Source: Candidatus Didemnitutus sp. | Lineage (GTDB): Bacteria; Verrucomicrobiota; Verrucomicrobiia; Opitutales; Opitutaceae | Length of the DNA stretch: 64,000 bases | Reading direction: 5' to 3' | NCBI GenBank assembly: GCA_017991595.1 | Contig: JAGOQJ010000002.1 | Coordinates: forward strand, 187,386 to 251,385 | Part shown: positions 6,379 through 30,803 of the stretch, in pieces | How positions within the stretch are numbered: position 1 is the stretch's first letter | How the letters are laid out: each line of letters opens with the position of its first letter | Position numbers and translations under genes: made by a program | Notes under the pieces: model-generated | The model's database searches: none | The model's input: only the letters and a program-made list of their open reading frames with translations | Told to the model about the DNA's origin: nothing

Positions 6379-9300
6379 ATGCCCGACGTCTCCGCCCAGG
6401 AACAAACCCGGCTCGCCATCCTCCGCGATTATGGCGTCCTCGACACGGCGCCGGAGGCGGAGCTCGATGCCATCGTCAGTCTCGCCAGCGAGATCTGCGG
6501 CGCGCCCATGGCGCTCATCACGCTCATCGACGAGTCGCGGCAGTGGTTCAAGGCCCGGCATGGCATCCCTTTCGCCTCGACCCTCCGCGAACATTCCTTC
6601 TGCGCCCACGCCCTGCACACCCCCGATGATCTGCTGCTGGTGCGCGACGCGACGCAGGATGCCCGTTTCGCGGACAATCCCTACGTCCGCGGCGAGCCCC
6701 ACATCCGTTTCTACGCCGGCTCAGCGCTCGTGACGCCCGAGGGCCATCGTCTCGGCACACTGTGCGTGCTCGACCGCCGCGAGCGCACGCTCACGCCCGA
6801 GCAGCAACAGGCGCTGCGCGTGCTCAGCCGGCACGTCATGGTCCATCTCGAACTCGCCCGGCGCTTGCGCACGCAGCAACGCGGCGAACAGCAACTCCAG
6901 GAACTCGCCAGTCGCCTCGAACAGCAGCGTGGCCGGCTCATCGAAGCCCAAGCCGTCGCCAAGGTCGGTAGTTGGGAAACCGATCTCGCGACGCTCGACG
7001 TGGTCTGGACCGAGGAGACGCACCGGATCTTCGGCACCGATCCCGCGCGGTTCCAGCCGACGCACGCCGGTTTTTTGGCGCTGGTTCATCCCGACGACCG
7101 GACCGCTGTGGAACGCGCCTTCTCGGAATCCGCCGGCAGCGCCTCGCCTTGCCTCATCGGCCACCGCATCGCGTTGCCCGACGGCACCGTGAAGTTCGTG
7201 GAGGAGCGCTGGCAGGTTTTCCACGATGCGGCCGGGCGTCCGCTGCGTGCGGTCGGCACCTGCTCCGACATCACCGAGCGGCGCCGGCTGGAGATCGAGC
7301 GTGAGCAACTCGTCCACGACCTCGGCGAGCGCATCAAGGAGCTGCGCGCGCTGCACGGCGCGGCGGAGCTCCTGCGCGACACCGATCGTCCGCTCCGTTC
7401 CGCGCTGGAAGGCATCGTGCAACTGCTGCCCGCCGCCATGCAACATGCCGGGATTAGCGCGGCGCACCTGCGCTTCGGCACGGAGGAATATGCCTCTCCG
7501 GGCTGGCAGGAGACGCCTTGGCGCCTGCGCGCCCGCTTCATCACCCGGCAGGGCGTGCCTGGTCTGCTCCAAATCGCCTACTTGGAGGAGCGCCCGCTCG
7601 CCGACGAAGGGCCGTTCCTCCGCGAGGAGCGCCACCTGCTCGACTCGCTGGTCGAGATGATCCGCGGCACCGTCGACCGGCGCGAATCCGAATCCGCCCT
7701 GCACGAATTGCGGCACCGCCAGAGTTTGGTGCTCAACTCGGTCAGCGAAGGCATCCACGGCCTCGATCTGCAAGGGCGCATTATTTTCGAGAACGCCGCC
7801 GGCGCCGCCATGCTGGGCTGGAGCGAATCCGAGCTCATCGGCCGACACTCCCACACCGTCATCCATCACCATCGGGCGGACGGGCGGGATTACCCGGTCG
7901 AGGAATGTCCGATCTTCCGCACGTTGCGCGATGGCGTCGTGCGCCGCATCGACGACGAGGTTTTCTTCCGCCGGGACGGTTCGAGCTTCCCCGTCGAATA
8001 CACCGTCTCACCCATCCTGGACGCCAGCAATCGCATCAGCGGCGCGGTCGTCAGCTTCCGCGACATCACTCGCCGGCTCGAGGCCGAGCAGAATGTCGTG
8101 CATCTCCGCAACCTCGCGCGGATGACGAGCCGTCTCGCTCGCATCGGTGCCTGGCAGGTGGATCTGCCGGATGGCCGCACGTATTGGTCCGACGAAGTGC
8201 GCGCCATCCACGCTGTCGAGGAAACCTATGTGCCGACTGCCGCGAACGGCCTCGATTTCTACACGTCGGAATACCGCCCGCTCGTGCGCGAGGCATTTCA
8301 GCGCTGCGTCGCGGACGGCACGCCCTTCGACCTCGAGGCCCAGCTGGTCAACCGCAACGGCCGTCGCCTTTGGGTCCGTGTCATCGGGGAAGCCGTGCGC
8401 GATGCGCGCGGCACAATCGTGCAGGTGCAGGGCGCGTTCCAGGACGTGTCCGAATCCAAACTGGCCCAGCAGGAACTGGCCGAGGCGCGCGAACTTCACA
8501 CCAACCTCGTCCACACCATCGACGGCATCGTGTGGGAAGCCACGGCCGCCGACCTGCGTTTCACCTTCGTCAGCCCGCAAGCCGAGCGCATGCTCGGGTA
8601 TCCTGCGGCCGATTGGATCGAACAGGCGGATTTCTGGGCGGCACACATCCACCCCGCCGATCGCGAGGCCACCGTCAGGCACTGCATCGAGTTGACCGCG
8701 CGCAAGGAGAACCACGCCTTCGAATACCGCATGCTCGCCGCCGACGGCCGCGTCGTCTGGCTCCGCGACATCGTCACCTATGTCGAATCTTCCGATCGGC
8801 CCGCACTCTTGCGCGGCCTGATGCTCGACATCACGGCCCGCAAGGAAGCCGAAACGCAGGCCCGTCAGCTCGAATCCCGTCTCACGACGACGCTGGAGAA
8901 CCTGACCGACGCATTCTTCACCCTCGATCACGAGTGGCGCTTCGCTTACCTCAATCGCCAGGCCGAGCTCCTGCTGCAGCGTCCGCGCAACGAACTTCTC
9001 GGCCGCGTCGTGTGGGACGAGTTCGCCCCGGCGCGGGGCACGATCTTCGAGTCCGAATACCGCCGCGCCATCGCCGAGCAGCGCGCCGTCAGCTTCGAGA
9101 CCTATTACTCGCCGCTCGGCGTCTGGCTTCAGGTCCACGCCTACCCGTCCGACCTCGGGCTCGCCGTCTATTTCCGCGACAGCAGCGCGACTCACGCCGC
9201 GGCGGAGGCGATGCGGATCAGCGAGGAGCGTTTTCGCCGCACCTTCTTCAACGCCCCGCTCGGTATGGCGGTCGTCTCCCTCGAAGCCCGCTTCCTCCAA

Positions 9301-11892
9301 GTCAACGAGTCCTTCTGCCGCATGCTCGGCTACACCGAGGCCGAGTTGCTCGCGCGCGACGTCGGCAGCATCACGCATCCCGACGATCGCACTGACACGG
9401 CGGAGGAGATCCGGCAGGTGCTCACCGGGGCCAAGGACACCTATTCCCTCGAGAAACGCTACCTCGCCCGCGACGGCCGCGTCCTCTGGTGCCACGTCAT
9501 CGTATCCGCCCTGCGGGACTCCGCCGGCAACGTGCAGCACTTCATCGGCACGGTCGAGAACGTCACCGAGTCCCGTGCCGCCGCCGAGGCCCTCCGCCGC
9601 AGCGAGCAGCGCTTCCGCGAGATGGCCGAGAACATCGGCGACCTCTTCTACAACTACGACCCCGTCAACAACCGCCTCCTCTACGCCAACAGCGCCTACG
9701 AGACCATCTGGGGCCGCTCGCTCAGCTACATGTATGCCCAGCCGACGAGCTACCTCGACGACGTGCATCCGGACGATCGCGCGGCCGCCGCCAACGCCTT
9801 CGAGCGCCAGCTCCGCGGAGAGTCCACCGATGTCGATTTCCGCATCATCCGCCCCGACGGCTCCATCCGGTGGATCCGCGAGCACGCCGTGCCCATCTTC
9901 GACGACGAGGGCAAGGTCGAGCGCATCGTCGGCACGATGCGTGACGTCACGGATCGCAAAACCGGCCTGGAGCGTCTGCGCGAGAGCGAGGAGCGTTTCC
10001 GTCTCCTCGCCAAGTCCACCTACGACGCCGTCTGGGACTGGAACCTCCTCACCGACACCATCTGGTGGAACGACGGCTTCGAGCAGCTTTTCGGCTGGAA
10101 GCGAGAAACGCTCCCGCCCGGCAGCCGTTCCTGGACAGACTACATCCACCCCGACGACCTCGACCGCGTCGTCACTGGCATCCACCGCTTGATCGACGGC
10201 ACCGACACCGAGTGGGCCGACGAATACCGCTTCCGCCGCCAGGATGGCACCTATGTCTACATCGCCGACCGTGGCGAAGTCGTGCGCGATGCGGACGGCA
10301 AATCGGTCCGCATGATCGGCGGCATGACAGACCTCACCGAACGCCGGCGAGCCGAGGAAAAGCTCCGCGAGCAGGCCGCGCTGCTCGACCAAGCCAAGGA
10401 CGCCATCATCGTCCGCGACCTCGAGCACCGCATCCTCTATTGGAACCGGAGCGCGGAGCGCTTCTACGGCTGGACCGCCGCCGAAGCCGTCGGCCGCTCC
10501 ATCAAGGAACTGATCTACGCCGACCCCGCCCCCTTCCTCACCGCCACAGCCCTCGTGATCGAGCGCGGGGAATGGACCGGCGAGATCGAGCACCTCCGCC
10601 GCGACGGCACCTCCCTCATTGTCGAAGGTCGCTGGACACTCATGCGCGACGAGGCCGGCCAGCCCAAATCCATCCTCGCGATCAACACCGACATCACGGA
10701 GCGCAGGAAGCTCGAGCAGCAATTCTTCCGCGCCCAGCGCCTCGAGAGCATCGGCACGCTCGCCGGCGGCATCGCCCACGACCTCAACAATCTCCTCGCC
10801 CCGATCACCATGGGCGTCGAGCTCCTGCGCCGCTTCGACCCCAACCCCAAGGCCAAACCCATCATCGACAGCATCGAGCGCAGCGCCCGCCGCGGCTCCG
10901 ATCTCGTCAAGCAGGTGCTCTCCTTCGCCCGCGGCGTCGAGGGCTCGCGCGTCGACATGCAAGTCCGGCACGTCGTGCGCGAGGTCGAATCGATCATTGA
11001 GAATACCTTCCCGAAGAACATCCACGTCGAGACCCAGCTCGCGGATTCCCTCTGGCTCGTCACGGGCGACCCCACCCAACTCCACCAGATCCTCCTCAAC
11101 CTCTGCGTCAACGCCCGCGACGCCATGCCTGAAGGCGGCACCTTGCTCATCGGTGCCGACAACATCGAGATCGACGAGCAATACGCCGCGATGGACCAGA
11201 GCGAAAAAACCGGCCGCTACGTCGTGCTCAGCGTCGTCGACACCGGCGTCGGCATCCCGCGCGAAAACATCGACCGCATCTTCGATCCTTTCTTCACCAC
11301 CAAGGATCTCGGCAAGGGCACCGGTCTCGGCCTCTCCACCGTGCTCGGAATCGTCCGCAGCCACGGCGGCTACGTGAATGTTTACAGCGAGACCGGCAAA
11401 GGCACCACCTTCAAGGTCTACCTGCCCGCCTCCGCGTCGGGCCCGGCCGCGCCCGACGCGCCGCGCGAGGAGGAAAAGTTTCCCCGCGGCCACGGCGAGA
11501 CCATCCTCGTCGTCGATGACGAGACCTCCATCCTCACCATCACGCAGCAGACGCTCGAAGCCTTCGGTTACAAAGTCCTCATCGCGGAAGATGGTGCGCA
11601 TGCCATCAGCCTCTTCGTCCTGCACCGGCAGGAAATCGCCGCCGTGCTCACCGATATGATGATGCCCGTGATGGACGGCCCCGCCCTCATCACCGCGCTG
11701 CGCCGCATCGACCCGTCCGTGCGCATCATCGCGGCGAGCGGCCTCAACGCCAACGGCCATGTCGCCAAGGCTGGCGCGCTCGGCGTGAAACACTTCCTCC
11801 CCAAACCCTATTCCGCCGACACTCTCCTCGTCGCCCTCCACAAGGTCCTCACCGATTCCGGCAGCCGGCCGCCCCTGCCCTCCGCTCCATGA
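6379..11892 (+). CDS. Giant cytoplasmic hybrid histidine kinase: GAF, PAS, GAF, eight PAS, HisKA, HATPase, receiver
   Basis: A 1837-aa soluble sensor with no transmembrane segment. Approximate domains are GAF 1-160, PAS 193-298, GAF 321-434, eight further PAS units from about 446 to 1443 (most closed by DITERR/DVTDRK-type linkers), HisKA with phospho-His1467 in GGIAHDLNN, a GHKL ATPase about 1563-1684 with GTGLGLST, and a C-terminal receiver with Asp1759 in TDMMMPVMDG. The start at 6379 has a GAGG 8 nt upstream and opens directly into the GAF domain; an in-frame ATG at 6280 would add an Arg/Pro-rich tail. The stop overlaps the next ATG (ATGA). Nine PAS domains suggest integration of several small-molecule or redox cues. 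The cognate output is unknown. Confidence 0.92.
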   Translation: MPDVSAQEQTRLAILRDYGVLDTAPEAELDAIVSLASEICGAPMALITLIDESRQWFKARHGIPFASTLREHSFCAHALHTPDDLLLVRDATQDARFADNPYVRGEPHIRFYAGSALVTPEGHRLGTLCVLDRRERTLTPEQQQALRVLSRHVMVHLELARRLRTQQRGEQQLQELASRLEQQRGRLIEAQAVAKVGSWETDLATLDVVWTEETHRIFGTDPARFQPTHAGFLALVHPDDRTAVERAFSESAGSASPCLIGHRIALPDGTVKFVEERWQVFHDAAGRPLRAVGTCSDITERRRLEIEREQLVHDLGERIKELRALHGAAELLRDTDRPLRSALEGIVQLLPAAMQHAGISAAHLRFGTEEYASPGWQETPWRLRARFITRQGVPGLLQIAYLEERPLADEGPFLREERHLLDSLVEMIRGTVDRRESESALHELRHRQSLVLNSVSEGIHGLDLQGRIIFENAAGAAMLGWSESELIGRHSHTVIHHHRADGRDYPVEECPIFRTLRDGVVRRIDDEVFFRRDGSSFPVEYTVSPILDASNRISGAVVSFRDITRRLEAEQNVVHLRNLARMTSRLARIGAWQVDLPDGRTYWSDEVRAIHAVEETYVPTAANGLDFYTSEYRPLVREAFQRCVADGTPFDLEAQLVNRNGRRLWVRVIGEAVRDARGTIVQVQGAFQDVSESKLAQQELAEARELHTNLVHTIDGIVWEATAADLRFTFVSPQAERMLGYPAADWIEQADFWAAHIHPADREATVRHCIELTARKENHAFEYRMLAADGRVVWLRDIVTYVESSDRPALLRGLMLDITARKEAETQARQLESRLTTTLENLTDAFFTLDHEWRFAYLNRQAELLLQRPRNELLGRVVWDEFAPARGTIFESEYRRAIAEQRAVSFETYYSPLGVWLQVHAYPSDLGLAVYFRDSSATHAAAEAMRISEERFRRTFFNAPLGMAVVSLEARFLQVNESFCRMLGYTEAELLARDVGSITHPDDRTDTAEEIRQVLTGAKDTYSLEKRYLARDGRVLWCHVIVSALRDSAGNVQHFIGTVENVTESRAAAEALRRSEQRFREMAENIGDLFYNYDPVNNRLLYANSAYETIWGRSLSYMYAQPTSYLDDVHPDDRAAAANAFERQLRGESTDVDFRIIRPDGSIRWIREHAVPIFDDEGKVERIVGTMRDVTDRKTGLERLRESEERFRLLAKSTYDAVWDWNLLTDTIWWNDGFEQLFGWKRETLPPGSRSWTDYIHPDDLDRVVTGIHRLIDGTDTEWADEYRFRRQDGTYVYIADRGEVVRDADGKSVRMIGGMTDLTERRRAEEKLREQAALLDQAKDAIIVRDLEHRILYWNRSAERFYGWTAAEAVGRSIKELIYADPAPFLTATALVIERGEWTGEIEHLRRDGTSLIVEGRWTLMRDEAGQPKSILAINTDITERRKLEQQFFRAQRLESIGTLAGGIAHDLNNLLAPITMGVELLRRFDPNPKAKPIIDSIERSARRGSDLVKQVLSFARGVEGSRVDMQVRHVVREVESIIENTFPKNIHVETQLADSLWLVTGDPTQLHQILLNLCVNARDAMPEGGTLLIGADNIEIDEQYAAMDQSEKTGRYVVLSVVDTGVGIPRENIDRIFDPFFTTKDLGKGTGLGLSTVLGIVRSHGGYVNVYSETGKGTTFKVYLPASASGPAAPDAPREEEKFPRGHGETILVVDDETSILTITQQTLEAFGYKVLIAEDGAHAISLFVLHRQEIAAVLTDMMMPVMDGPALITALRRIDPSVRIIAASGLNANGHVAKAGALGVKHFLPKPYSADTLLVALHKVLTDSGSRPPLPSAP

Positions 11893-24212: not shown

Positions 24213-24755
24213 TCAGCCGCGCTGGACCAATGCCGCCACCTCGGCCGCCGCAATCACCCGATACGCCGGCCAGTAGGCGGCGTTAAATTTCGGCGAGTGC
24301 CGGCACGGCGGATAACCCGCGCTCGCCTGCACGACGCCGTATTCGCGCGCCCGCTCGCCGTCGAAGGGCAGCAAGCCCGCCTTCGCGAGCGCCTCGACCT
24401 GCGCCCAAAGCTCGCCGAGAGCGCGCCGACCGCCCGCCACCGGCTGCGCGGACCGCACGAAGGCCGTGGCGAGTTCCTCGTGGCGTCCGCCGCCCGCGAC
24501 AAAGGGCCGCAAGTGCACGCGCACGAACGCACCGCCCGGCGGCAACGGCTCGAGCATCGGCTCCAACTCGGCCTCCTGCAGGGAGGCGACTTCCTCCGCC
24601 AGACGTGCCTGTGCCCCGCCCCGCTCCACCGCATGCTCCGGGCCGCAGCAGCCTTGGAACAGCAGTTTGTAGACATCCTGCGGCTCCAGCAGCGGATAGC
24701 GCGCCACGTGGGCGAGCAAGAGCTGGCGGGAGGATTGAACCGTCGGGGTCGCCAT
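24213..24755 (-). CDS. Conserved hypothetical protein (180 aa)
   Basis: A 180-aa soluble protein with no signal or membrane segment. Recognisable blocks are EPQDVYKLLFQGCCGPEHAV near the N-terminus, FVRVHLRPFVAGGG in the middle and HSPKFNAAYWPAYRV near the C-terminus. I recall similar unassigned proteins in several phyla that share the Y-K-L..Q...G-P-E-H, R-V-h-L-R-P and P-A-Y-R-V blocks, but I know no function for them. I chose the ATG at 24755, preceded by GGGGAACG; a longer frame upstream has no family features. It follows the YcaO gene by 113 nt on the same strand. Confidence 0.7.
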   Translation of the reverse strand: MATPTVQSSRQLLLAHVARYPLLEPQDVYKLLFQGCCGPEHAVERGGAQARLAEEVASLQEAELEPMLEPLPPGGAFVRVHLRPFVAGGGRHEELATAFVRSAQPVAGGRRALGELWAQVEALAKAGLLPFDGERAREYGVVQASAGYPPCRHSPKFNAAYWPAYRVIAAAEVAALVQRG

Positions 24756-24868: not shown

Positions 24869-25768
24869 TCACCAGAAAAAATATGTCGGATCGTCGGCGA
24901 GGAAACGCTCGCTCGGTGGCGCATACGCCACGCGCCACACCGAGGCGTAGCGACTCCACGGCCCGGGGATTGCCGCGTCGCAGATCAGCCGCGGACGCAA
25001 TGCCGGACGCGAACACCCCGACCGCAAGCGCTCGAGAAAATGTTCATACCCGTGCGCGCTCGCGAAGTGAAGACTGCGTCGTTCCAGCAAATCCGTCACC
25101 TCCGGCAGCACCGTGGCGGCATCGTTCGACGCCAACACACGCTGCCGCAGCACGAGCGCGTGGCGCTCGAGTTCATCCATGGCCCGCGCGCACGCCGCCG
25201 CGTAGGTCGCCGCGCTCGCGTGACCATAAGCCGCCGATCCGTCCGGCGCGCGTCGATGCAGCAGCACCGTGATCCCCGGCGCCTCAGAGCACAGCACGGC
25301 GGCCTCCACGCCCGGCCAAGGTGTTGTCGTCTCGCGCGCCGCGAGATGTCCTTCCCACCACGCGCGCAGATTGAAACGCTCCGCGGCCTCGTGCAGCGCC
25401 GCCCTGCGTGCCTCCCGCGCGAACAAGCCGGGATACGCCGCCATGCCGGTCGTGGAGGGATCGATATCAAATCCATAGCGCCGCCCTTCCGAGATCGGCG
25501 CGAGCGTCAGGTGCGCCCAACGCTCGAGCGTCTCGGAGATGGCCTTGAAGCGGGCAACCATCGGCGCCGCATCCGTGCCGGAGCCGGTCGCATCGCTGAA
25601 GAGATGGTTCTCGGACCGGCGCGGCCCGCATAGCTCCGCACACAAATAAGCGTTGGCAGCAAAGCGCCGCGCGCCGGCGACGGTGAAGTCGCCAAGTTCG
25701 ATGCGCGCGACGGGTCCGCCGGCCGCAGCCATAACCGCGCGATAACGGAAGGCAGCGAGGTTGGGCAT
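24869..25768 (-). CDS. YcaO-family ATP-dependent peptide-modifying enzyme (standalone)
   Basis: A 299-aa protein matching the YcaO fold in three places. The first is SDATGSG followed by KAISETLERWA (Glu79, Glu82, Arg83), the ATP/Mg-binding motif. The second is ALHEAAERFNLRAWWEG (about 125-140), equivalent to the ALLE..ER block. The third is a helix rich in AAACARAMDELERHA (about 191-204). YcaO enzymes phosphorylate peptide amide oxygens to build azolines, amidines or thioamides. The usual C-terminal Pro-rich tail of azoline-forming members is absent; it ends DDPTYFFW. No E1-like, TfuA or dehydrogenase partner is in the window. The ATG at 25768 lies 4 nt after the stop of a 60-codon ORF, so the two are likely translationally coupled. 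Confidence 0.75.
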   Translation of the reverse strand: MPNLAAFRYRAVMAAAGGPVARIELGDFTVAGARRFAANAYLCAELCGPRRSENHLFSDATGSGTDAAPMVARFKAISETLERWAHLTLAPISEGRRYGFDIDPSTTGMAAYPGLFAREARRAALHEAAERFNLRAWWEGHLAARETTTPWPGVEAAVLCSEAPGITVLLHRRAPDGSAAYGHASAATYAAACARAMDELERHALVLRQRVLASNDAATVLPEVTDLLERRSLHFASAHGYEHFLERLRSGCSRPALRPRLICDAAIPGPWSRYASVWRVAYAPPSERFLADDPTYFFW

Positions 25769-25772
25769 CGAT

Positions 25773-25955
25773 TCAGGCCGGAAGGGTGAGCTGACAAGTT
25801 GTGCCCGTGAACGGCGCCGTGGCCAATGTCGACCGCGGCTGGTTGGCCGATTGCTCGGCACGCAACGGATCGCACCAGACGGCGGCGCGGATCAAGCCCA
25901 AGGAAAGAAAAGCGCTCGAGAGCGCTCCAGTGATAAGCGAGGAGGTGAGTTTCAT
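25773..25955 (-). CDS. Candidate precursor peptide (60 aa) directly upstream of the YcaO gene
   Basis: A 60-codon ORF on the YcaO strand, ending 4 nt before the YcaO start. Residues 1-25 are hydrophobic and signal-like (MKLTSSLITGALSSAFLSLG). A charged spacer with Cys28 follows, then a C-terminal half rich in Ser and Thr with one Cys (STLATAPFTGTTCQLTLPA, residues 42-60). An in-frame ATG six bases upstream would give 62 aa; I prefer 25955 because a GAGG then sits about 10 nt away. Third-position G+C is fairly high but lower than in neighbouring genes. It may be a YcaO substrate, a small secreted protein, or a chance frame. Confidence 0.45.
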   Translation of the reverse strand: MKLTSSLITGALSSAFLSLGLIRAAVWCDPLRAEQSANQPRSTLATAPFTGTTCQLTLPA

Positions 25956-26107
25956 CGCCATCCAGCCTCGGTCGCGTTCTCGCTCGGCGTGCAGGAAGCA
26001 AACCGCCTCTCCTGCGGTCGGGTGCGGCCTGCCAACAAGCGCGGCGCGACCTGAAACTAGGTGTTGCGCAGGCGTTTTTCGTCGCGTCAACTGCCGGTCT
26101 TAAGGTC

Positions 26108-29918: not shown

Positions 29919-30617
29919 TCACTGCCGGCCCGGAATCTGGTCCGCGCGCACCAAACCCTGGGCCAGCGCAAAGTGGATCAGCTTCGGCGTGCTGTGGATG
30001 TCGAGTTTCTTCATGATGTCGCGCCGGCGCGACTGCGCGGTGGACGGGCTGATGCCGAGCACGGCCGCGATCTCGTGGTCATCCTTCGCCTCGCCGATGA
30101 GTGCCAGCACCCGCATCTCGTAGTCGGACAGGACACGGTTGAACGCATGGGGATCGCGCCGCAGCTCGGCGCTGGCCCGGCCGACGACCTCCGTGTAAAA
30201 AGTGCGCCCGAAGAGCACCGCCTCGATCGCTTCGCCCAGGATCTCCGGCCGCTGCTCATTCTTGTCCACGAAGCCGTGCAACCCGCTGCGCTGGACCTGC
30301 AGCATGGTCCAGGGGTCGCGATGAGAGGAGATGCCGATCACGCGCAACGTGGGGATCTCGCCCATGAGCTGGACGGCCGCGGACAACCCGTTCCCGTCCG
30401 GCAGCGAGAAATCCATCAGCACGAGGTCGGGCTTGAGCCGCCGGATCGTAGCGACGCCCTCCTCAAGCAACGCGCACATCGCGACGACCTCCAGTCCCAT
30501 TTGCCGGCAATGAGCGCCGAAGAGCTCAGCCACCAGCAGTTGGTCCTCCACGATGACGACCCGGCCGCTGAGTTTGGGCATCGCTTTGACCTGAGTTGTT
30601 TGGCGACCACTCCCCAT
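29919..30617 (-). CDS. NarL/FixJ-type response regulator
   Basis: A 232-aa regulator with a receiver (phosphoacceptor Asp in LVLMDFSLPDGNG, switch residues GISSHRD and FVDK) and a C-terminal LuxR-type helix-turn-helix (YEMRVLALIGEAK, HEIAAVLGISPSTAQSRRRDIMKKL). The start is ambiguous: ATG 30617 has an AGGGG 7 nt upstream, while ATG 30581 (MPKLSGRVV) opens closer to the receiver fold. The gene converges on the propeller kinase, with 4 nt between stop codons, which suggests a functional pair with phosphate passing from the kinase Hpt domain to this protein. It should bind DNA and control transcription, and it is the only regulator with a DNA-binding output domain in the window. Confidence 0.9.
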   Translation of the reverse strand: MGSGRQTTQVKAMPKLSGRVVIVEDQLLVAELFGAHCRQMGLEVVAMCALLEEGVATIRRLKPDLVLMDFSLPDGNGLSAAVQLMGEIPTLRVIGISSHRDPWTMLQVQRSGLHGFVDKNEQRPEILGEAIEAVLFGRTFYTEVVGRASAELRRDPHAFNRVLSDYEMRVLALIGEAKDDHEIAAVLGISPSTAQSRRRDIMKKLDIHSTPKLIHFALAQGLVRADQIPGRQ

Positions 30618-30728: not shown

Positions 30729-30803
30729 TGGCGCCCTCACGGGGAATCGAACCCCGGTTTGGGCCTTGAGAGGGCCCCGTCCTAGCCGCTAGACGATGAG
30801 GGC
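30729..30803 (-). tRNA. tRNA-Glu (anticodon CUC)
   Basis: A full cloverleaf is readable on the minus strand. The 7-bp acceptor stem is GCCCTCA with TGAGGGC, and the T-loop is GTTCGATTCC. The anticodon loop CTCTCAA gives CUC at positions 34-36, which reads GAG. The CCA tail is encoded (30729-30731). Total length is 75 nt. It lies 61 nt downstream of ndk on the same strand and has its own terminator. Confidence 0.95.

Follow-up and report, generated by a model that had tools for sequence, protein, structure and literature searches.

What looks like an undescribed YcaO-dependent modified-peptide cassette, with an unusual leader and a dedicated sensor kinase, in Opitutia

Two adjoining genes in the 64,000 nucleotides of DNA analysed here (the window), one for a 60-codon peptide and one for a standalone YcaO-type enzyme, are the centre of what looks like an undescribed YcaO-dependent modified-peptide system, unusual in its leader and served by a sensor of its own. 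In our full reading, which we hold with a probability of roughly 0.55, the enzyme modifies the peptide, the peptide is exported, and it is the probable ligand (an autoinducing signal) of a phosphorelay belonging to the same cassette. A first-pass annotation had proposed that the two genes might form a minimal, undescribed pair. The pair stands, while 'minimal' does not: a hybrid sensor kinase, a LuxR-type regulator and a promoter palindrome also belong to the cassette (Table 1).

The small ORF lies where that annotation had put it (25773-25955, on the strand of the YcaO gene and ending 4 nt before its start). Its stop codon is 25773-25775, the YcaO ATG follows at 25768 after the 4 nt, and the YcaO stop codon is 24869-24871. 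The single Cys described in the C-terminal half of the peptide is C54; there is an additional Cys, C28, which closes the leader. In the sensor kinase Pfam identifies two-component propeller, Y_Y_Y, HisKA, HATPase, receiver and Hpt domains.

Table 1. Coordinates of the cassette and of neighbouring features in the window
Feature	Position	Strand	Basis or remark
Candidate precursor peptide	25773..25955	-	60 aa from ATG 25955 (62 aa from ATG 25961)
Leader, residues 1-30	25866..25955	-	Column composition in aligned homologues
Variable core region, residues 31-60, with Cys54	25776..25865	-	pN comparison and repeated copies in relatives
Standalone YcaO-type enzyme, 299 aa	24869..25768	-	Pfam family matches, Foldseek, hhalign
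Divergent hybrid sensor histidine kinase, 1268 aa	26108..29914	+	Pfam; faces the precursor/YcaO pair
Response regulator, receiver and LuxR-type (GerE) DNA-binding domain	29919..30617	-	Pfam
Palindromic box CACCTAGTTTCAGGTC	26048..26063	-	Shared promoter region, 92 nt before the precursor ATG
180-aa protein, 3' of YcaO	24213-24755	-	ORF
tRNA-Glu (ctc)	30729-30803	-	Adjoins the response regulator gene

The small ORF is a real gene and not a chance ORF. A profile search (E <= 0.1) finds a precursor homologue upstream of the YcaO gene in 73 of the 80 named loci, which were kept from 103 confirmed in a scan of GTDB genomes. The profile was built from 20 seeds picked by eye among upstream ORFs; 12 of these are the same DNA as named loci and, when those loci are excluded, the count is 61 of 68. 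The 77 profile matches include two weak ones (L103, E = 0.017; L104, E = 0.062). Among the seven loci missed, L080 and L105 have 1 and 120 bases of upstream DNA, L096 carries upstream an ORF in which a core-like repeat occurs twice (the second copy lacks Cys), and three from Cerasicoccus (L090, L099 and L100) have a 39-aa ORF in the place of the precursor; L085 has no upstream precursor candidate. Across 57 genomes (the window's own included) the profile matches 20, and 21 of the 23 matches adjoin a YcaO gene or a YcaO remnant. One of the two found away from YcaO (G011:C304) runs into a contig end and has a divergent kinase-like frame on its other side; the second (G001:C12:779174; E = 0.006) has no cassette gene that we noticed within 2 kb. 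The precursor profile (A4) finds no match in G002 and G022, both of which carry an intact YcaO gene.

Conservation of the ORF in relatives that keep the YcaO gene had been proposed as a check, together with purifying selection, and both are found. In 18 independent pairs YcaO has a pN/pS of 0.17, residues 1-29 of the peptide one of 0.32 and the remaining residues one of 0.52; pN itself is 0.09 for YcaO, 0.16 for the leader and 0.37 for the core. When dN/dS is corrected for multiple hits in the same 18 pairs, the values are 0.11, 0.22 and 0.24, respectively. Since those of leader and core are then nearly equal and core pS (0.70) is near saturation, faster evolution of the core rests on pN alone. 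The pooled dN/dS leaves out the multi-precursor loci (L067, L069, L073 and L078) and also L072.

With 73 of 80 loci carrying a homologue and with purifying selection, a chance ORF was rejected. That the frame might be accidental, or regulatory (for example, a leader peptide controlling translation), could be suggested by the window, where 4 nt separate its end from the YcaO start, as with coupled leader ORFs, but conservation at the amino-acid level and purifying selection over many loci have already largely refuted this. The multi-copy cores count against it too, as do L093, L098, L101, L102 and L104, where precursor and YcaO lie 83 to 255 nt apart and the DNA between them forms a stable hairpin, and we give it hardly any credence. 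Among 12 long gaps that were folded (61-256 nt), six fall below mononucleotide shuffles by more than 3 sd (L033 and the five loci just named) and six do not; in L098, L101 and L104 the strong hairpin is followed by a T run, as in a terminator. A hairpin at this place would be expected to yield more precursor than enzyme. Four loci (L067, L069, L073 and L078) have two precursor-like genes each; in the first three of these one gene lacks P-[CST] and ends ...SRLS. The second gene of L078 is downstream of YcaO.

The linked precursor combines a conserved leader with a variable core, and thus has a RiPP-type architecture. The leader was aligned in 76 of 89 peptides, those with a hydrophobic-Asp anchor; the 89 include 12 added by hand, four of which (from L090, L096, L099 and L100) had been missed by the profile. 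It consists of a basic start, a hydrophobic core G-x2-S-S-L-L-L-x2-G, and then a conserved Ala and D-P (consensus M-K-...-R-L-x-L-G-L-x-S-S-L-L-L-x-x-G-F-x-R-x-A-E-R-L-D-P). In the 76 anchored leaders three columns are 99% Gly, 96% Ala and 89% Leu. Judged from sequence only, the leader resembles a Sec signal peptide and is more conserved than a plain signal would need to be. If the conserved Ala is taken as -1, residue -3 is R, K or H in 66% of leaders. The excess conservation and the basic -3 place make a role in leader recognition likely and leave cleavage by signal peptidase unsettled.

The core occurs in several copies in some relatives: five of SSAFSELPCQF in L071, three in L034, two in L070, three of (T/L)GCAQLPCYHRDF in each of L093 and L094, and three of DTCTWPCE in L102. 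Pro-Cys pairs number 77, compared with 17.0 +/- 3.8 in within-peptide shuffles, and are carried by 54 of the 89 peptides. At the end of the motif C-x(1,2)-P-X (55 occurrences), X is Cys in 35, Thr in five, Ser in three and another residue in 12 (32, 5, 3 and 12 if counted by peptide), and the peptides of the three Cerasicoccus loci end FPTEV, YPTEV and WPCEV. YcaO cyclodehydratases use Cys, Thr and Ser, and the exchange of these three residues after Pro therefore points to that position. P-[CST] is missing from 18 of the 89 peptides, and seven lack Cys beyond residue 28. In the window, the core closes with TTCQLTLPA and has Thr-Cys, not Pro-Cys. The role of substrate that the small ORF had been assigned is strengthened by the conserved leader, the variable and repeated cores and the P-[Cys/Thr/Ser] position, with modification still an inference. 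We consider it very probable that the cassette is a RiPP system, again with the proviso that modification of the core is inferred.

The enzyme is a divergent, partner-free member of the YcaO superfamily (PF02624). As a single sequence, the window YcaO has no Pfam match, only a weak NCBIfam match to SagD (E = 0.012), and a single-sequence search of PDB sequences was negative; a search of its own genome with the PF02624 profile gave no match. Because these searches were negative, family, fold and profile-profile routes were tested, and all were positive. A YcaO search of 57 genomes (own included) gave matches in 22, from which 23 sequences were aligned, leaving out L022 (genome G012) and L025 (genome G028), where YcaO is degraded or partial. 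Pfam YcaO is matched at E <= 1 by 20 of the 23 (best 5.3e-8) and SagD by 21 (best 1.1e-5), and in single scans seven of ten family members exceed the curated Pfam cut-off. The predicted structure (mean pLDDT 89.7) has eight Foldseek matches in the PDB at E <= 0.001, all of them YcaO enzymes (two to microcin synthetase chain D and six to YcaO 4q85), with modest TM-scores by query length (0.41-0.53). An hhalign comparison of the family with E. coli YcaO and six canonical YcaOs from the phylum yields E = 2.2e-5 at 76% probability, and one with the six canonical YcaOs alone yields E = 7.7e-6 at 84%. The family profile run against PDB sequences finds no YcaO, only unrelated matches (E 0.16-0.34). 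Misassignment of the enzyme was rejected on the family Pfam matches, the Foldseek matches and hhalign, and the YcaO identity given in the first-pass annotation withstands family-level profile and fold tests (20 of 23 sequences and eight of eight structures).

In the hhalign alignment E128, E131, R132 and E200 are placed opposite E. coli E199, E202, R203 and E290 (our numbers are those of the aligned sequence, whose first codon precedes the ATG, and each is one more than if counted from the ATG). By eye, E80 and E83 fit the first E-x2-E-R motif. We take the paired acidic residues of the family to be its ATP/Mg-binding residues. The protein is a bare YcaO domain whose C-terminus, ...Y-F-F-W or close variants, is conserved across the family. 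It had rightly been remarked that it has no Pro-rich C-terminal tail, a feature that has a role in azoline-forming YcaOs.

We propose that the 60-codon gene encodes a leader-core precursor, which the YcaO would bind without a partner, probably through the conserved hydrophobic leader; this recognition is inferred. Using ATP, the enzyme would activate a backbone amide of the core, most likely before a Cys, Thr or Ser that follows Pro, and the product of this step would be an azoline or, alternatively, an amidine. The chemistry is likewise inferred. It could also be imagined that the small protein is exported, or is a membrane peptide, without being modified, and that the YcaO acts on something else (a ribosomal protein or the kinase, for example). 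E. coli YcaO is annotated as an accessory factor in methylthiolation of ribosomal protein S12, and roles of YcaO other than on peptides therefore exist; in addition, the leader looks like a signal peptide or a short membrane helix. This seems to us improbable given the close coupling of the two genes (60 of 76 gaps are no more than 50 nt), the repeated cores, the exchange of C, T and S after Pro and the near absence of the peptide where there is no YcaO.

A survey of neighbouring genes identified nine gene clusters present in at least six of the 80 loci, eight with Pfam matches and one without. E1-like or ThiF-like partners are characteristic of azoline-forming cyclodehydratases (TOMM/LAP type), and TfuA of thioamide-forming YcaOs. 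No E1-like, ThiF, TfuA or dehydrogenase gene is among the eight identified by Pfam (one cluster being unidentified), so that the lack of an E1-like, TfuA or oxidase partner noted for the window extends to the identified recurring neighbours in the 80 loci. No ABC exporter, immunity gene, protease or other peptide-modifying enzyme was identified among the nine clusters, one of which is unidentified. The missing partner protein is no bar to activity, since the standalone YcaOs of bottromycin act without partners: according to the accessible parts of two papers, one forms a thiazoline from Cys and the other a macroamidine (PMC8442711, PMC7136475). As no dedicated exporter recurs beside the pair, the peptide would be exported by a general route such as Sec. 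Export is inferred, and we regard it as probable that the peptide leaves the cell.

The clusters that do recur include signalling genes 3' of YcaO, namely a receiver-PAS-kinase on the same strand (in up to 11 loci), an HATPase protein (10 loci) and a receiver-sigma54 activator (seven loci). A type II secretion F-type gene is found after YcaO in six of the 80 loci, and the further clusters are two methyltransferase-type proteins and one unidentified protein. By homology, TonB-dependent receptor genes are present in the flanks of six of the 80 loci (L037, L086, L098, L099, L101 and L102), with confirmation by Pfam for L099 only (8906-11638). These receptors could import the peptide or be unrelated to it. 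In the window, the 180-aa protein has no Pfam or NCBIfam match; a counterpart lies at the equivalent place in L026.

The cassette includes a linked sensor kinase and regulator, as a peptide quorum-sensing system requires; a response of the kinase to the peptide is inferred. The kinase faces the pair in 65 of the 66 named loci with at least 4.3 kb of upstream DNA (the exception is L077). Homologues of the LuxR-type regulator that group with it by sequence are linked in 52 of 80 loci, in most but not all cases at about 4.9 kb upstream (the median); a stricter positional test finds the regulator in 40 of the 57 loci that have enough DNA. In 17 of the 21 genomes whose YcaO is intact (16 of 20 when the window's own genome is set aside), the sensor half of the window kinase has its best match next to YcaO. 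This count was compiled by hand; the best match is elsewhere in G021, G022 and G039, and in G028 contig ends prevented the test. Of eight genomes searched, three have their sole Y_Y_Y match at E <= 0.001 at the position of the kinase beside YcaO.

One genome, G011, has a sensor match (L159 on G011:C424; E = 1.5e-98) with no precursor or YcaO found beside the kinase. An unrelated frame, which resembles a carbamoyl-phosphate synthase, faces this kinase, and the precursor of G011 lies on a different contig, next to a second kinase-like frame. It is mainly this genome, together with the near-equal corrected dN/dS of leader and core, that lowers our confidence in the full reading slightly.

The sensor half varies more than the rest: among 19 chosen pairs with members in common, the kinase core has a median identity of 78.1% and YcaO one of 82.7%, against 48.7% in the sensor half. 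An unlinked kinase pair used as a control has 63% identity in the kinase and 56% in the sensor, and the linked pair from the same two genomes 77% and 51%. Fast evolution of the sensor is weak evidence because only one unlinked control pair was found. L026, the nearest relative of the window, has a divergent core and a sensor that is 86% identical. Sensor divergence may fit a change of ligand and receptor, although the support is weak, and the pair formed by the window and L026 would not fit a strict co-evolution of core and sensor.

The pair may instead make a modified peptide while the kinase responds to something external, such as a glycan, a metal or stress, and merely turns on production of a bacteriocin, a metallophore or some other effector. 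Kinases with propeller/Y_Y_Y sensors, such as this one, sense glycans (oligosaccharides) in Bacteroides. Paired Cys residues, in the form C-x(2-5)-C in 50 of the 89 peptides, could bind metal, TonB-dependent receptors flank some loci as described above, and in G011 a related kinase occurs with no pair found beside it. We nevertheless think such an arrangement unlikely, if worth keeping in mind: the nine recurring clusters (one unidentified) hold no ABC-type exporter, immunity or protease gene, the facing kinase is nearly universal, and its sensor half diverges fast. In the full reading, the facing kinase and the LuxR-type regulator would constitute a phosphorelay acting on the shared promoter, with the mature peptide probably its ligand and hence an autoinducing signal. 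That the peptide signals through its own phosphorelay is an inference, and taken by itself we rate it a little below even. We put forward only tentatively the most extended form of the proposal, in which this would be the first peptide-pheromone system built on YcaO, with an exported modified peptide whose leader doubles as signal peptide, sensing by a propeller-type hybrid kinase and autoregulation of LuxR type, distributed over many Opitutia (Verrucomicrobiota) with many types of core signal.

The shared promoter region provides a further regularity. In 72 family regions of 230 nt before the precursor (loci without a profile-found precursor or with too little upstream DNA are excluded), the exact palindrome YACC-N8-GGTR occurs in 33, compared with a mean of 0.3 in 30 shuffles and with 22 of 1420 random 230-nt windows of the loci. 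A spacer of 8 gives these 33 regions and the next best, a spacer of 4, gives four. Of 36 exact sites, 30 are 47-49, 70-71 or 90-93 nt before the precursor ATG, positions spaced by about two helical turns. The exact palindrome is absent from 39 of the 72 regions, including that of the window, whose own box fits YACC-N8-GGTR with one mismatch. The pattern is also found at five other places in the window (1.3 expected), and four other loci have TACG-N8-CGTA at 68-71 nt. NarL/LuxR-type regulators bind inverted repeats of this kind; the palindrome as operator of the cassette regulator is an inference made without binding data.

Several known systems share part of this organisation. Microcin B17 (McbBCD) is the nearest in fold, its synthetase chain D being the best match, and it has Cys, Ser and Thr acceptors. 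Unlike microcin B17, the cassette has among its identified recurring genes neither a dehydrogenase nor an ABC exporter nor a partner of E1-like or ThiF-like type, and its enzyme ends ...YFFW and not in a Pro-rich tail. If the main reading is right, the cassette would, like agr-type quorum sensing, hold a modifier, a variable peptide and a sensor kinase in one locus. The agr-type systems have a different enzyme, leader, kinase and regulator, and no homology is claimed.

Bottromycin and the cassette both have a partner-free YcaO. The methylations, radical SAM genes and transporter of bottromycin, as given in the accessible part of its description (PMC7136475), have no counterpart among the identified recurring genes of the cassette, which for its part has a hydrophobic precursor leader and a phosphorelay. 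The streptamidine family (AmiA/AmiD) and ItfA/ItfB resemble the cassette in pairing a YcaO with a small precursor outside the classic azole clusters. Their products are amidines, as far as the available portions of the papers go (PMC8442711, PMC10352776). From what is accessible of these sources, formation of streptamidine involves AmiB beside the YcaO and its family is described from Actinobacteria and Firmicutes; a BGC8 cluster described as similar to ItfB combines a leader of GG type with a transporter that contains a peptidase; and no facing sensor kinase, such as the cassette has, is mentioned for either group. Sec signal peptides on RiPP precursors are called rare, with use of Sec experimentally proven only for bufferins, in the part of PMC12452194 available to us. 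Bufferins and other MNIO-modified peptides with Sec signal peptides rely on an MNIO enzyme, usually with a partner protein, whereas the cassette has a YcaO, and no MNIO is among its identified recurring genes.

A literature search on YcaO, RiPP and quorum sensing in Verrucomicrobi- and Opitut- gave no description of such a system among the matches listed, which were titles and starts of abstracts and did not cover most subscription papers and preprints; nor is the cassette described in the accessible parts of PMC7298704 or PMC7794033. If our reading is true, it would add a YcaO peptide family based on a divergent enzyme that the Pfam profile misses in this genome. It would also join YcaO chemistry to signal-peptide-like leaders, those called rare among bacterial RiPPs in the partly available source cited above, and would provide these bacteria with a possible cell-cell signal, of a type that the literature matches listed (titles and abstract starts) do not include for the group.

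The carriers of the cassette are a group of soil and water bacteria. The enzyme was found in 16 of 384 genomes drawn from the class (own included), all of them in the order of the window according to the grouping used by the tool. Its named relatives carry Opitut- labels, other Verrucomicrobiota labels or genus names such as Lacunisphaera, Cerasicoccus and Coraliomargarita; NCBI taxonomy places the last two in the class Opitutia, order Puniceicoccales. The enzyme has no plasmid match, and a plasmid origin was rejected on that ground. In genome G012 a kinase remnant with a stop codon adjoins the degraded YcaO gene, so that the cassette seems to decay together.
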